Assembly: GCA_016209015.1 (NCBI GenBank)
Contig: JACQWY010000017.1
Span: forward strand, 1 to 64,000
Reading direction: 5' to 3'
Length of the DNA stretch: 64,000 nt
Source: Gammaproteobacteria bacterium
GTDB lineage: Bacteria; Pseudomonadota; Gammaproteobacteria; Ga0077536
Shown here: positions 56,627-63,106 of the stretch, one piece after another
How the letters are laid out: each line of letters starts with the position of its first letter
How positions within the stretch are numbered: the first letter of the stretch is position 1
Program-made: the position numbers and the translations under genes
Notes under the pieces: generated by a model
Seen by the model: only the letters and a program-made list of their open reading frames with translations
What the model was told of the DNA's origin: nothing
The model's database searches: none

Positions 56627-57763
56627 TCAGGAGCCTTCGAGCTGACGCGCGATGACGAGGCGCTGCACGTCGCTCGTGCCTTCGTAGATCTGGCAGACGC
56701 GCACGTCCCGGTAGATGCGCTCGACGGGGAAATCCTCGACGTAGCCGTAGCCGCCGTGGATCTGGATGGCGTCCGAGCACACCCGCTCCGCCATCTCGGA
56801 GGCGAAGAGCTTCGCCATCGACGCTTCGCGCAGACACGGTCTGCCGGCGTCCCGGAGCGCGGCCGCGTGCAGCACCATCTGACGTGCGACTTCGATCTTC
56901 GTCGCCATGTCGGCGAGGCGGAACGCGACGGCCTGGTGCCCGGTCAGCACCACGCCGAAGGCCTTGCGTTCGTTCGCGTACTTCACCGCCGCCTCGAACG
57001 CCGAGCGCGCCATGCCGACGGATTGCGCGGCGATGCCGATGCGTCCGCCTTCGAGATTCGAGAGCGCGATGCGATAACCCTCGCCTTCGCTGCCGAGGAG
57101 ATTCTCGTGCGGCACGAGGCAGTCCTCGAAGAGTATTTGCGCCGTGTCCGAGGCGTGCTGGCCGAGCTTGCGCTCGAGGCCCGCCACTTTGTAGCCGGGC
57201 GTGCTCGTGGGCACGATGAACGCGCTGATGCCGCGCTTGCCGGCGTCCGGGTCGGTCACCGCGAAAACGATCGCGACATGTCCGTTCTTGCCCGACGTGA
57301 TGAACTGCTTCGTGCCGTTCAAGACCCAGCCCTGCCCGGTGCGCTTCGCGCGGGTCTTGATCGCCGCAGCGTCCGAGCCCGCGTGCGGCTCGGTCAGGCA
57401 GAACACGCCGATGAACTCGCCGCGGGCGAGCGGCCGGAGGTACTTCTCCTTCTGCGCCGCCGTGCCGTATTTCAGGATCGGCATGCAGCCGACGGAGTTG
57501 TGCACGCTCACGATCGTCGAGGTCGCAGCGTCGCCGGCCGCGATCTCCTCGAGAGCCACGGCGAGCGCGACGTGATCGAGCCCCGCGCCGTCGTAGTCCG
57601 GCGGGACGAGCATGCCGAGCAGCCCGAGCCCGGCCATCTCCTGCAAGGCCGCGGCCGGAAAGGTGCAATCGCGGTCCCATTGGGCGGCGAACGGGGCGAG
57701 GCGCTCGGCGGCGAAGCGGCGGGCGAGGTCGCGGATCATCAACTGGTCTTCGGTCAGCAGCAT
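56627..57763 (-). CDS. Acyl-CoA dehydrogenase (short-chain/butyryl type)
   Basis: A 378-residue acyl-CoA dehydrogenase of the short/branched-chain group. [20 protein letters not shown] at the start, [20 protein letters not shown] for FAD contact, [20 protein letters not shown], then [20 protein letters not shown] and [20 protein letters not shown]. The C-terminal ICQ-type block [15 protein letters not shown] carries the catalytic glutamate (YEGTS). ATG 57763 has GAGAGGAA upstream, and the family start agrees. Downstream yedK follows by 7 bases. Faces the large oxidoreductase gene across a 321-base divergent region. Confidence 0.94.
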
Positions 57764-57872
57764 GCGGGATCGTTCCTCTCGTCGTGGGTCCGGCCGCCCG
57801 CCGGGATGCGGGCATGATAATCGAGGCCGCGGGACCGGGCTCGCCCGGGGCCGCATGCGGCACAATCCCGGA

Positions 57873-57902
57873 TTGTACGCGGGGACCGGCTCACGCTAGA
57901 CT
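57873..57902 (+). promoter_or_regulatory. Possible promoter of the large fused oxidoreductase gene
   Basis: TTGTAC (57873-57878) and TAGACT (57897-57902) with 18 bases between lie in the 321-base divergent region. It is the best sigma-70 match on the plus strand there. The start codon is 183 bases further; no regulator site is obvious. Confidence 0.35.
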
Positions 57903-58084
57903 CCGGCCCGTCCGAGGACCTCTGGATGACAGCGAGCAGAGTCGGTGCAGGATGCCGCTGAGCGAGCGTGGCGATCCGTCCCTCCGGGGCATGGCGGCGC
58001 CCGTGCGCACCGATAGGGCCTCCGTCCCGCCTGCCGCTATATCGCACGTCCTCCCGCTTCACACTTTCCCATGGTAGCCAGCAC

Positions 58085-61000
58085 ATGACCCAGACGACTT
58101 CCGCGCCGGCCCTCGCGCCCGGCATCGACGGCTTTTCCTACGCAGATCTCTACCAGCCGGCGAAGCTCGCCGGGCTCCTGACGCGCTTCGACCGCGAGCT
58201 CGAGACCGGCGCACCCGAGCTGTGGGCGCGCTTTGCCGCCTACCGTGCGAATCGCGGCGAGGGCATGACGCCGGAAGACATCTCCGCCGTGCTCGTCGAC
58301 ACCGCGCCCTACGTCGGCGAGTTCGTCGGCCGTCTCTTCGGCGTGACGACGCAGCACGCCGGGCAGGTCGCGGCGATCACGGGCGAGTTCGCGACGATCT
58401 TCAAGTTCCGCACGGACGTCGTCGGCACGTTCGACAAGCGCTTCAAGGGGCAGGATGCCGCGAGCTGGGATCGCGCCGCCCTCACGAGCGCGAAAGACGC
58501 GATCGTGAAAGCACTGGGCGAGGGCCGGGGCGACGCCGAACGCGACGTCGCGGCCGCGGGCCTCGCGCTCGACGCGCTCGCGAAGGCCGAAGCCCCCGAC
58601 GCCGCGGCGCTGCGCACGAAGCTCGCAGGCAGTGCGGCGCTCGCGGAGGCACTCGCGATCGCCGACCACAAGAGCTGCGTCGCGGCGGTCAACGAGGCGC
58701 TGCTGCGCTGGTGCCGCCTCGCCGCGACGGAGGCGTCCTTCGCGCCCGAGACGCACCGCTGGGTGCTGTTCAAGGTCCCGGCGAAGACCGACTGGGACGA
58801 TCTCGTCGAGCACCAGATGGTCGATCGCGGTACGCACAAGGCCTGGGTCGGCCCCGAGCACGAGCGCCGTCGCCGGGTCGGGTTCTCCCTGACGGACCCG
58901 CGCATGGACCGCCGTCACGCGCTCTACGAAATCGATCACTGCATCTTCTGCCACGATCGCGACGCGGACTCCTGCGCGAAGGGCATGCGCAACAAGAAGG
59001 AGGGCGGCTACAAGGTCAACGCGCTCGGCGTGACCGTGACGGGCTGCCCGCTCGGCGAGAAGATTTCCGAGATGCATCTCGTGAAGCGCAACGGCGACAA
59101 CATCGGCGCGCTCGCGCTCATCATCATCGACAACCCGATGTGCCCGGGCACCGGCCACCGGATCTGCAACGACTGCATGAAGGGCTGCATCTACCAGAAG
59201 ACCGAGCCCGTCAACATCCCGCAGATCGAGACGAACGTGCTGACGGACGTCCTGTTCATGCCCTGGGGCTTCGAGATCTACTCGTTCCTCACGCGCTGGA
59301 ATCCGCTGAACGTCGCGCGCCCGCATGCGCTGCCGCACAACGGCAAGAAGGTGCTGGTCGTCGGTCTCGGGCCCGCCGGCTACACGCTCGCGCATTATCT
59401 CCTGAACGAAGGCTTCGCCGTCGTCGGCGTCGACGCACTGAAGCTCGAGCCGCTGCCACAGGCGCTGCTCGGCGTGGGCGGCGCGCCGCAGCCGATCCGG
59501 GACTTCCGCGCGCTCTACGAGGATCTCGACAAGCGTACGAACCTCGGGTTCGGCGGCGTCGCGGAATACGGCATCACGGCGCGCTGGGACAAGAATTTCC
59601 TGAAGGTCATCTATCTCACGCTGCTTCGCCGTGAGACGTTCCGCTGCTTCGGCGGCGTGCGCTTCGGCGGCACGATCACGGTCGATGACGCCTGGAAGTT
59701 CGGCTTCGATCACATCGCGATGGCGACGGGCGCGGGCAAGCCCTCGATCATCGGTCTGAAGAACAACCTGCTGCGCGGCATCCGCAAGGCCTCCGACTTC
59801 CTGATGGGCCTGCAGCTCACCGGTGCGGCGAAGGACAGCTCGCTCGCGAACCTGCAGGTGCGCCTGCCGGCCGGCATCATCGGCGGCGGTCTCACGGCCA
59901 TCGACACGACGACGGAAGTGCTCGCCTATTATCCGAAGCAGGTCACGAAGACGCTCACGCGCTACGAGAAGCTCGTCGCGCTGCATGGTGAAGAGAAGGT
60001 TCGCGCGCGCTTCGACAAGGAGGAGCTCGGCATCCTCGACGAGTTCCTCGCGCACGGCAGAGCGATCCGCGCCGAGCGCGAGCGCGCCGAGCAAGCGGGC
60101 GAGACGCCGGCATACGCGCCGCTCGTCAAATCCTGGGGCGGCTCGACGATGTTCTACCGCAAGGGCGTCGCGGACTCGCCGGCCTACCGCCAGAACCACG
60201 AGGAAATCAAGGAAGCGCTCGCCGAGTCCATCGACATCGCGCCGGGCATGAATCCGATCGAAGCGATCGCGGACGAATTCGGCGCGCTCGCCGCCGTGCG
60301 CTTCGAGAAAGTCGAGGACGGCAAGAAGAGCGAGGTCGTGATCCCCATGCGCAGCCTCTTCATCGCCGCCGGCACGAGCCCGAACATCATCTACGAGCAG
60401 GAGCATCCGGGCACGTTCAATCTCGCCGGCAAGTTCTTCAAGAACTTCGACGCGATCCCGGACGGCACGGAAATCAAATTCGAGCCGATCACCGTCGAGG
60501 GCGGACCGAAGATCGCGCCGCCCGCGCCGTTCACCTCCTACCACGCCGACGGCCGACACATCACGTTCTACGGCGACAACCACCCGGTCTATGCCGGCAA
60601 CGTCGTGAAAGCGATGGCGAGCGCGAAGGACGGCTATCCGCACGTCGTGAACCTGTTCGCGAAGGAGCTCGCGAAGCTCGACCCGGCAGGGCAGGGCGCG
60701 CGCGACGCCGCGCTCGGCGATTTCTTCGGCGCGCTCGAAGCCGCGTTCACGGCGACGGTCGTGAACGTCGAGCGCCTGACGCCGACGATCATCGACGTCA
60801 TCGTCAAGGCCCCGCATGCCGCGAAGCATTTCGAGCCCGGCCAGTTCTACCGCGTGCAGAACCTCGAGAACCTCGCGCCGACGGTGAAGGGCACGACACT
60901 CGCGTCCGAAGGCATCGCGCTGACCGGCGCCTGGGTCGACAAGGAACAGGGCATCGTCTCGCTCATCGCGCTGGAGATGGGCACCTCGACCCGCCTCTGC

Positions 61001-61720
61001 GCGGGCTGGAAGCCGGGCGATCGCCTCGTCGTGATGGGCGTGACCGGCGCGCCGACGCACATCCCGCAGAACGAGACCGTGCTGCTCGCGGGCGGCGGTC
61101 TCGGTAACGCCGTGCTGTTCTCGATCGGCAAGGCGCTGCGCGCCGCGGGTAACAAGGTCATCTACTTCGCGGGCTACAAGTATCCGCGCGACGTCTTCAA
61201 GGTCGAGGACATCGAAGCGGCGGCGGACGTCGTCGTATGGTCCGTCGATCCCGGTCCGGACGTCACGCCCATCAAGCCGCGCCGTCCGCAGGATCTGACG
61301 TTCGTCGGCAATATCGTGCAGTCGATGGTGGCCTATGCGAGCGGCCAGCTCGGGACGACCACGATCAGTCTCGCCGATGCCTCGGAGATGATCGTCATCG
61401 GCTCCGACGGCATGATGGCCGCGGTGAAGGCGGCGCGCTTCGGCGTGCTCGCGCCGCACCTGAAGCCCGACCATCGCGCGATCGGCTCCATCAACTCGCC
61501 CATGCAGTGCATGATGAAGGGCGTGTGCGCGCAGTGCATGTGCAAGCACGTCGATCCCAAGACCGGCGCGGAGACGTTCGTCTACTCCTGCTACAACCAG
61601 GACCAGCCGCTCGATCTCGTCGACTTCCCGCATCTGCGCGGTCGCCTCCGTCAGAACTCGGTGCAGGAGAAGATCGGCAATATGTGGTTCGACTACGTGA
61701 TGGATGCGAAGGCGGGCTGA
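58085..61720 (+). CDS. Fused GltD-like and PyrK-like flavin/iron-sulfur oxidoreductase (Nfn-type architecture)
   Basis: A 1211-residue protein in three parts. Residues 1-280 are helical and unrecognised. Next come cysteines 286, 289, 297 and 321, then a GltD-like iron-sulfur site, Cys353, Cys361, Cys364 and Cys368 (CPGTGHRICNDCMKGC). GLGPAG (427-432) binds FAD and IIGGG (598-602) lies in the pyridine-nucleotide domain. The last 300 residues are PyrK-like: FYRVQNLENL, LLAGGGLGNAVLFSIGKALR, then Cys1142, Cys1148, Cys1151 and Cys1169 as a probable 2Fe-2S site. A GltD-like and a PyrK-like unit make up NfnB and NfnA of the bifurcating NADH:ferredoxin/NADPH transhydrogenase. Whether this enzyme bifurcates is inference. 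Weak ribosome site; start at homology and Met. Confidence 0.85.
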   Translation: MTQTTSAPALAPGIDGFSYADLYQPAKLAGLLTRFDRELETGAPELWARFAAYRANRGEGMTPEDISAVLVDTAPYVGEFVGRLFGVTTQHAGQVAAITGEFATIFKFRTDVVGTFDKRFKGQDAASWDRAALTSAKDAIVKALGEGRGDAERDVAAAGLALDALAKAEAPDAAALRTKLAGSAALAEALAIADHKSCVAAVNEALLRWCRLAATEASFAPETHRWVLFKVPAKTDWDDLVEHQMVDRGTHKAWVGPEHERRRRVGFSLTDPRMDRRHALYEIDHCIFCHDRDADSCAKGMRNKKEGGYKVNALGVTVTGCPLGEKISEMHLVKRNGDNIGALALIIIDNPMCPGTGHRICNDCMKGCIYQKTEPVNIPQIETNVLTDVLFMPWGFEIYSFLTRWNPLNVARPHALPHNGKKVLVVGLGPAGYTLAHYLLNEGFAVVGVDALKLEPLPQALLGVGGAPQPIRDFRALYEDLDKRTNLGFGGVAEYGITARWDKNFLKVIYLTLLRRETFRCFGGVRFGGTITVDDAWKFGFDHIAMATGAGKPSIIGLKNNLLRGIRKASDFLMGLQLTGAAKDSSLANLQVRLPAGIIGGGLTAIDTTTEVLAYYPKQVTKTLTRYEKLVALHGEEKVRARFDKEELGILDEFLAHGRAIRAERERAEQAGETPAYAPLVKSWGGSTMFYRKGVADSPAYRQNHEEIKEALAESIDIAPGMNPIEAIADEFGALAAVRFEKVEDGKKSEVVIPMRSLFIAAGTSPNIIYEQEHPGTFNLAGKFFKNFDAIPDGTEIKFEPITVEGGPKIAPPAPFTSYHADGRHITFYGDNHPVYAGNVVKAMASAKDGYPHVVNLFAKELAKLDPAGQGARDAALGDFFGALEAAFTATVVNVERLTPTIIDVIVKAPHAAKHFEPGQFYRVQNLENLAPTVKGTTLASEGIALTGAWVDKEQGIVSLIALEMGTSTRLCAGWKPGDRLVVMGVTGAPTHIPQNETVLLAGGGLGNAVLFSIGKALRAAGNKVIYFAGYKYPRDVFKVEDIEAAADVVVWSVDPGPDVTPIKPRRPQDLTFVGNIVQSMVAYASGQLGTTTISLADASEMIVIGSDGMMAAVKAARFGVLAPHLKPDHRAIGSINSPMQCMMKGVCAQCMCKHVDPKTGAETFVYSCYNQDQPLDLVDFPHLRGRLRQNSVQEKIGNMWFDYVMDAKAG

Positions 61721-61838: not shown

Positions 61839-62270
61839 TCAGACGAACTTCGCGTAGAACGCCTGCGCGGCGATCTGTCCGATCTCCTCGTCCTGCTGGT
61901 AGGTGCCGCCGCTCTCGCCGAGCGCGCCGAGCATGCGGCCGTCCGGTGCGCGCAGCACGATGCCGCCCCACACCGGCGTGTACAACGGATCGCAGAACCA
62001 GGTGATCTCGCGGCGTTCGTCGCCGAGCGACATGTCGAAGAGCCGCGTCTTCAGCACCTTCGTATCCATCTGCCATTTTGTCGCGGTATAGGCCTTGTTG
62101 TAGCTCATGCGCGCGTTGAGCGCGGTGGCGCCGTCCATGCGCGAGAGATGGATGAGATCGCCGCCGTAGTCGACGACGGCGGCGGCGAACTTGATGCCGC
62201 GCTTCGCGGCTTCCTCGAGCATGACGTCGACGATGAACCGGGCTTCGACCAAGCCGAGCTTTTCAGCCAT
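61839..62270 (-). CDS. GlcG/HbpS heme-binding family protein
   Basis: A 143-residue protein of the GlcG/HbpS family, which bind heme or act as cofactor-binding partners. GLVEARFIVDVMLEEAAKRG at the start, AAAVVDYGGDLIHLSRMDGA, SYNKAYTATKWQMDT and the GGIVLRAPDGRMLGALGESG loop are typical. Cytoplasmic (no signal peptide). ATG 62270 was chosen over an upstream ATG by the spacing of GGAGG. It lies opposite the large oxidoreductase across a repeat; no functional link is shown. Confidence 0.85.
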   Translation of the reverse strand: MAEKLGLVEARFIVDVMLEEAAKRGIKFAAAVVDYGGDLIHLSRMDGATALNARMSYNKAYTATKWQMDTKVLKTRLFDMSLGDERREITWFCDPLYTPVWGGIVLRAPDGRMLGALGESGGTYQQDEEIGQIAAQAFYAKFV

Positions 62271-62359
62271 GAGCATTCCTCCGTTCGTTGCGTGGAGCAC
62301 GATTATGGGGTGCGGCACCGGAAATCAGTAGACTATCCGCGAAACCGAACGACGATCCC

Positions 62360-63106
62360 ATGGCCCTCGATTACACCATCCAACTCCCCTGTTCCGTCCG
62401 GCAGACGCTGCCCGAGGAGAAGCTCTTCGCGCTGGTGAAGCGCCAGGACAAGGTGGCGGCCGCGATCGCGCGGTTCCGGGTGCAGTATCCGCACGAAGCG
62501 CCCGATCGCATCCTCGCCGCAGGCCGGCTCACGATCTCCGTCCGGACGCCGGACGGAGACGCACGCGAAATGCCCGTGAGCCTCGCGCAGCTCCTGCGTT
62601 CCGTCGCGCCGCTCGACGACGTGAAGCACGCCTGCGGTACCTGCGCCGCGAACCTCACCGGGCGCGATTTCGGCTGCATCGGGCGCGTGGACTATCCCGT
62701 CGCCCGCGCCGCCGAGGAGTGGCTGCTCGCGCGGCTGCCGGACGATTACTGGGACGGCAATCTCGTCATGCTCTTCAAATCGCTCGCCGATCTCGAAGTG
62801 GACGGCGCGCCCGTCGAGGCGGTCCGCGCCCGTGGCGCGGCATTCGAGGCGAGCGCGCCCGTCAGCCGCCAGTGGGGCGGCCTGCTGACGAAGAAGCAGA
62901 TTTCCTCCAGCCAGCTCCTGCACATGCTCGCGTTCGGCGGTCACCTGAGCGCGCGCCAGGCGCAGCTCTACACGCGTCTGCTCGGACTGCTCGCGATACC
63001 GCTGGAGCCGCCTTCCGGAGATGAGTCGATCGAAGCGCTGAAGACGTTCCTGTGCGCGATTGCGATCGCCGGGCGGTTGAATGCTGGGGTGCTGATCGAC
63101 GCGTAG
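62360..63106 (+). CDS. Cysteine-containing protein of unknown function
   Basis: A 248-residue protein. The N-terminal half starts LDYTIQLPCSVRQTLPEEKL and has a CxxC and a further cysteine close by: Cys92, Cys95 and Cys106 (ACGTCAANLTGRDFGCIG), a possible metal or iron-sulfur site with Cys11 or His90. The C-terminal half is helical, with WGGLLTKKQISSSQLLHMLA and a QAQLYTRLLGLLAIPLEP segment. No signal peptide or membrane segment. No family recognised. It is divergent from the GlcG/HbpS gene; TAGACT at 62329-62334 may be its -10 element. Directly followed by a repeat island. Confidence 0.7.
   Translation: MALDYTIQLPCSVRQTLPEEKLFALVKRQDKVAAAIARFRVQYPHEAPDRILAAGRLTISVRTPDGDAREMPVSLAQLLRSVAPLDDVKHACGTCAANLTGRDFGCIGRVDYPVARAAEEWLLARLPDDYWDGNLVMLFKSLADLEVDGAPVEAVRARGAAFEASAPVSRQWGGLLTKKQISSSQLLHMLAFGGHLSARQAQLYTRLLGLLAIPLEPPSGDESIEALKTFLCAIAIAGRLNAGVLIDA

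Follow-up and report, generated by a model that had tools for sequence, protein, structure and literature searches.

The window analysed here is a 64,000-nucleotide stretch of a gammaproteobacterial genome (assembly GCA_016209015.1, contig JACQWY010000017.1, positions 1 to 64,000), and near its end a forward-strand gene encodes a 1211-residue protein in which an N-terminal helical domain, a GltD/NfnB-like half and a PyrK/NfnA-like half follow one another in a single chain. An earlier annotation made from the letters alone (the sequence-only reading) had proposed a one-polypeptide transhydrogenase or ferredoxin:NAD(P) enzyme. The start and stop of its 1211-residue frame (58085-61720) hold, cysteines are present at all the positions it named (353, 361, 364, 368, 1142, 1148, 1151 and 1169), and so are the flavin adenine dinucleotide (FAD) and pyridine-nucleotide Rossmann motifs. 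The features are as follows.

58085-61720, forward strand: whole gene, a PRK06567-like single-chain flavin iron-sulfur (Fe-S) oxidoreductase of 1211 residues (helical domain, GltD(NfnB)-like half, PyrK(NfnA)-like half)
58085-58774, forward strand: N-terminal all-helical domain, residues 1-230, common to the whole family, without a PDB fold match
58775-60664, forward strand: GltD/NfnB-like half, residues 231-860, with a VIA match to NfnI-L (5jca_L)
58940-59047, forward strand: first cysteine cluster, C286-x2-C289-x7-C297-x23-C321-P, from alignments
59165-59230, forward strand: C361-x2-C364-x3-C368 and Glu382, aligned with P. furiosus NfnL
59345-59440, forward strand: FAD Rossmann motif KKVLVVGLGPAGYTLAHYLLNEGF, residues 421-452
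59582-59584, forward strand: Arg500, aligned with NfnL Arg201 by sequence
59870-59923, forward strand: second Rossmann motif, around GIIGGGLTAIDTTTEV, by analogy the NADPH site
60731-61717, forward strand: PyrK/NfnA-like half, residues 883-1211, with a VIA match to T. maritima NfnA (4yry_C)
61091-61114, forward strand: NAD-site motif GGGLGNAV, kept in the window's clade
61508-61591, forward strand: 2Fe-2S ligand motif C1142-x5-C1148-x2-C1151-x17-C1169, with Cys for the Asp of NfnA
57764-58084, no strand: intergenic region of 321 bp between the gene and a divergent acyl-CoA dehydrogenase gene

The observed frame is far from chance, because a search of a collection of genome contigs returned about 300 relatives, the best 80 of them mostly full length and 51-72% identical. 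Pyr_redox_2 is the only Pfam family to exceed its cut-off in the window protein. The best NCBIfam model, PRK06567 (NF005128), belongs to an uncharacterised NCBI family whose cores are collinear with those of the window's family, and every one of the 26 proteins in a diverse alignment matches it; since it gives the window protein 582 bits against a cut-off of 1072, we regard the protein as a relative of PRK06567 and not as a named member. Other models of fused GltD/PyrK proteins score far lower (PRK12778, 140; PRK12779, 86), and the nearest sequences with a solved structure are NfnI-S (1e-17) and NfnI-L (4e-11). NF005128 carries the name glutamate synthase small subunit / 2-polyprenylphenol hydroxylase, and a literature search on this database name found no papers. 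It is highly improbable that the protein is what the name of its best model says: the score lies well under the cut-off, GltD has nothing that would correspond to the PyrK half and its cluster, and no GltB was seen beside the gene in the neighbourhoods read.

Structure prediction, covering residues 12-1211 with 51 sequences in the alignment, gave a confident model, with a predicted local distance difference test score (pLDDT) of 86.7 and a predicted template modelling score of 0.88. Each half was compared separately with single PDB chains by VIA-align: the GltD half superposes on residues 4-472 of NfnI-L (5jca_L) with Z 24.8 and a root-mean-square deviation (rmsd) of 2.7 over 438 aligned residues, and the PyrK half (883-1205) on residues 1-276 of NfnA (4yry_C) with Z 13.5, rmsd 2.7 and 260 of 265 residues aligned. 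Both Nfn halves are thus found in one chain, as had been suggested, and in this chain-by-chain comparison each fold matches its Nfn subunit over the full length. The GltD half also has NfnII/Xfn (5vj7) as one of its three best structural matches; that enzyme is archaeal and of two subunits and has lost NAD use in its PyrK half, whereas the window protein is one chain and keeps the NAD motif. The large subunits of StnC and NfnABC (8oh5, 9bov) are, like the window protein, large chains with a GltD-like NADPH domain, but StnC joins GltD to NuoG-like Fe-S domains instead of PyrK, and the Glu shared by Nfn and the window protein is Lys in StnC (PMC10482914). The N-terminal domain of about 230 residues, folded alone, is helical (pLDDT 93.6); against the PDB, Foldseek returned nothing below E 2.5 for it and VIA a best Z of 4.6, which is not proof of a new fold.

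Cys286, 289, 297, 321, 361, 364, 368, 1142, 1148, 1151 and 1169, Glu382 and Arg500 are invariant across two divergent clades of the family. The sequence-only list of cluster cysteines in the GltD half was correct for 361, 364 and 368, which are conserved, but it overlooked Cys286, 289, 297 and 321, which are invariant in 72 of 72 aligned sequences, and its Cys353 is not conserved: being missing in 5 of the 72 and outside the invariant columns of a wider alignment, this residue is probably not a ligand. By analogy with DPD and NfnL, we presume C286, C289 and C297 to be ligands of the distal cluster and C321 of the proximal one. A HMMER alignment places C321, C361, C364, C368 and E382 on NfnL C56, C101, C107, C111 and E126, and R500 on NfnL R201. 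In P. furiosus, the proximal 4Fe-4S cluster has NfnL E126 as its Glu ligand (PMC9503767), and NfnL R201 hydrogen-bonds N5 of the bifurcating FAD (PMC10482914); by this alignment Glu382 is probably the fourth ligand of the proximal cluster. The spacing of the cluster motifs differs from that of NfnAB/NfnI, HCx2Cx7Cx23CPL and HRICNDCx3C replacing the NfnB motifs RCx2Cx4Cx3CPV and GRVCPQExQCx3C. YRK at residues 691-693 is presumed to form the 2'-phosphate site.

The PyrK half differs from NfnA as well. Doubt had been raised about the 2Fe-2S site, and it was justified: the NfnA Asp motif DGTGMCGxCRx10CV occurs in none of the sequences of our motif census, the window protein reading CMMKGVCAQCx17C. 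In a weak but collinear alignment the cysteines of NfnA are matched by C1148, C1151 and C1169, and C1142 stands one position ahead of the Asp. The NfnA flavin strand ERxPxT is EGIALT in the window protein. As the Asp ligand of NfnA has been linked to the 2Fe-2S potential of +80 mV (PMC6405883) and is absent here, the potential is expected to differ from that of Nfn.

Set beside NfnAB/NfnI (P. furiosus 5jca, T. maritima 4yry), the window protein is alike in both full-length folds, the Arg at FAD N5, the Glu cluster ligand, the FAD and NADP Rossmann motifs and, within its clade, the NAD motif; it differs in being one chain with an extra helical domain and about 25% identity, and in having Cys at the 2Fe-2S site. 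With the NfnA Asp ligand and the ERxPxT strand replaced, we call it Nfn-like and not demonstrably Nfn. It could still be an Nfn in a single chain, functioning in aerobes, and the retention of Arg500 and Glu382, the two complete subunit folds and the NAD motif of its clade all fit such an enzyme; we nonetheless think this unlikely, given that the Asp ligand (DGTGMCGxC) is absent in every sequence examined and EGIALT stands in place of ERxPxT. Nor are the retained residues decisive, as a short-lived, Arg-protected flavin semiquinone is important but not sufficient for bifurcation (PMC6405883) and the Glu ligand is found in glutamate synthase too (PMC8097209). What stands of the transhydrogenase or ferredoxin:NAD(P) proposal is therefore the pair of Nfn halves and an aerobic-looking host; bifurcating activity is not established, with the Asp and ERxPxT replaced and a subclade lacking the NAD motif.

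As an idea, a one-chain Nfn is not new. A 2019 review describes four Nfn patterns, two of them (B and C) fused, and Pattern C has the domain order of the window protein (PMC6405883). Pattern C shares with it a single chain, an N-terminal extension, the GltD half first, a C-terminal PyrK half and an occurrence in Proteobacteria; to judge by length and order, it is probably the PRK12779/NF009415 type (for example L148-L152). One Pattern C-like protein of an alphaproteobacterial type (L155, 958 residues, above the PRK12779 cut-off) carries all the canonical Nfn ligand motifs that the window protein lacks, Asp included (VDATGMCGAC), and is about 25-27% identical to it over the cores; hhalign, run with this single sequence, detected no similarity between its N-terminal region and our N-terminal domain. 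On these differences in motifs, core identity and N-terminal region, we treat the window's family as a distinct variant and not as a member of Pattern C.

Two clades can be told apart within the family. Clade I, to which the window protein belongs, comprises methanotrophs, other Gammaproteobacteria, Acidobacteria and Nitrospirota and has GGGLGNAV intact. In a subclade of Gammaproteobacteria, whose identity is mostly 41-47%, this motif is replaced by sequences such as AGRWGAAV and GGRMASAH, with every cluster cysteine retained. (Six 'missing' rows of the census, L057, L061, L101, L104, L105 and L106, are apparent antisense frames and were left out of the losses.) In lacking GGGxG the subclade is like NfnII, an enzyme that makes no use of NAD (PMC8097209), and this parallel loss, with all Fe-S cysteines kept, would suit an NfnII/Xfn-like NADPH:acceptor oxidoreductase in which the PyrK half works with some acceptor other than NAD+. 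For the window protein that seems quite unlikely, since its NAD motif is intact, as it is in 107 sequences of the census.

Members of the family occur widely among bacteria, many of which breathe oxygen. Of the 232 gammaproteobacterial genomes sampled, 46 carry the gene; among 58 close relatives, 29 gave some match, usually over the full length, and in a phylum-wide sample the PRK06567 model detected it in 12 of 249. In three genomes (G140, G083 and G205) a single in-frame stop, TAG in one and TAA in two, falls within the tblastn match; decay, an overrun of the match or an error in assembly may be the cause. The window's own 5.7-Mb genome has one copy, plus two short weak matches. Its eight COX1-family matches agree with the apparently aerobic host of the sequence-only reading, and it also encodes FdxA (67% identity), PntB and several 2-oxoacid:acceptor oxidoreductases (nine POR-domain matches). 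In this genome (G000:C65; L154, 5820-10216) there is also a canonical NfnB/GltD-like protein of 502 residues, with the motifs RVCPQEKQC, LERW and FRLP, its gene directly before KorA-like and KorB-like genes in an apparent operon.

Gene neighbourhoods offer scattered associations. In one genome (G321; L131/L146) the gene closes a CysI-sirohaem-CysH-CysD-CysN operon, 5 bp after CysN, with no CysJ in the operon; relatives lie in or beside assimilatory sulfate-reduction (cys) loci also in G358, L134/L147, L038 and L070, and in L038 and, by reading, L070 the gene sits between a siroheme reductase-like gene and CysB. Such settings (above all G321, G358, L038 and L070) could mean that the protein is an NADPH-fed donor for a specific siroheme reductase, the assimilatory sulfite reductase, in place of CysJ. 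We doubt this strongly: NIR_SIR genes are missing altogether from 8 of 46 gene-positive genomes, which led us to reject a dedicated sulfite reductase donor; the window's own genome has CysJ adjoining its NIR_SIR gene; and in those sampled genomes for which NIR_SIR places are listed, NIR_SIR does not adjoin the gene studied here. Elsewhere the gene adjoins KorAB, a 2-oxoacid:ferredoxin oxidoreductase (L135), has FdxA, the monothiol glutaredoxin GrxD and NadA nearby (L103, L112, L117), or lies near zwf/gnd (L115, L136, L139). Of the two copies in G061 (L114, L115), one has FdxA and an ABC transporter nearby and the other gnd/zwf/pgl. In one genus (L098/L099; G140, G244) PntAB lies within about 3 kb of the gene, an unusual pairing of an Nfn-like gene with the proton-linked transhydrogenase. 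A dedicated KOR partner was also considered and rejected, the POR domain occurring in 16 of 46 gene-positive against 89 of 186 gene-negative genomes, with no positive link; so was replacement of PntAB, since PntB is present in 32 of the 46 and the two do not exclude each other.

These linkages all involve NADPH, ferredoxin or Fe-S chemistry and suggest NADPH-ferredoxin exchange. Together with the full-length fold matches of both halves, the invariant Glu382 and Arg500, the NAD motif of the window's clade and the FdxA, 2-oxoacid:acceptor oxidoreductases, PntB and COX1-family oxidases of the window's genome, they lead us to read the protein as a single-chain NADPH:ferredoxin oxidoreductase, a soluble relative of Nfn, with an NAD(H) site in the window's clade; we put the probability of this reading at about 0.5. 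Several results weigh against it. Unbiased clustering of neighbours in 37 lineages found no conserved neighbour and no informative family in more than 4 of 37 (NadA in 4, FdxA in 3, CysN-type GTPases in 3, a broad 6PGDH-like family in 4), and the linkage examples above were picked post hoc, so that each may be chance. Co-occurrence across the 46 gene-positive and 186 gene-negative genomes showed no significant link (Fisher p: PntB 0.13, CysJ 0.06, NIR_SIR 0.25, POR 0.14), which also argues against one dedicated partner. To our knowledge, no activity, cofactor or electron partner is known for any member of the family.

The data show the domain layout, the set of conserved ligands, the two folds as predicted and the spread of the family; cofactors, substrates, direction and physiological role we infer as follows. 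The GltD half would bind FAD, two 4Fe-4S clusters and probably NADP(H). In the PyrK half another FAD would be joined by an all-cysteine 2Fe-2S cluster and, for proteins of the window's clade, probably by NAD(H). The GltD flavin would be the point where NADPH, or reduced ferredoxin if the reaction is reversed, exchanges electrons. A ferredoxin, for instance FdxA, would receive or give them through the pair of 4Fe-4S clusters, and NAD(H) or some other acceptor would be reached by the 2Fe-2S/FAD branch. The enzyme's task would be to keep NADPH and reduced ferredoxin in balance, in an aerobe, for biosynthetic needs such as sulfite reduction and Fe-S enzymes. If so, the family may mark a route between NADPH and ferredoxin that has gone unrecognised in aerobes, including methanotrophs with biotechnological uses. 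A bolder proposal, which we think improbable, is a further, widespread Nfn-like type in aerobes, including many methanotroph genera, whose 2Fe-2S cluster is all-cysteine instead of Asp-ligated and which links NADPH, NAD(H) and ferredoxin by flavin-based bifurcation or confurcation. In two surveys of bifurcating enzymes Nfn is nearly confined to anaerobes, a single aerobe being mentioned (PMC6085437, PMC6405883); were the proposal true, bifurcating transhydrogenation would enter the aerobic world and the Asp ligand would be dispensable. With the flavin Arg and the Glu ligand kept and the 2Fe-2S ligation altered, in about a fifth of sampled gammaproteobacterial genomes, the family is a natural test of the features that bifurcation needs.

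The gene is a single-gene unit, because its upstream neighbour, the acyl-CoA dehydrogenase gene that starts at 57763 on the opposite strand, is divergent and the next gene downstream, an HbpS-like gene at 61839-62318, is convergent; the earlier description of a monocistronic gene with a 321-base upstream region agrees with this arrangement. Further downstream, an open reading frame at 62312-63103 on the forward strand, of about 264 residues, has no Pfam family at E 1e-5. Opposite the 1211-residue gene runs an antisense frame of 1198 residues (58037-61633, reverse strand), which we treat not as a gene but as most likely a shadow of GC-rich coding sequence.

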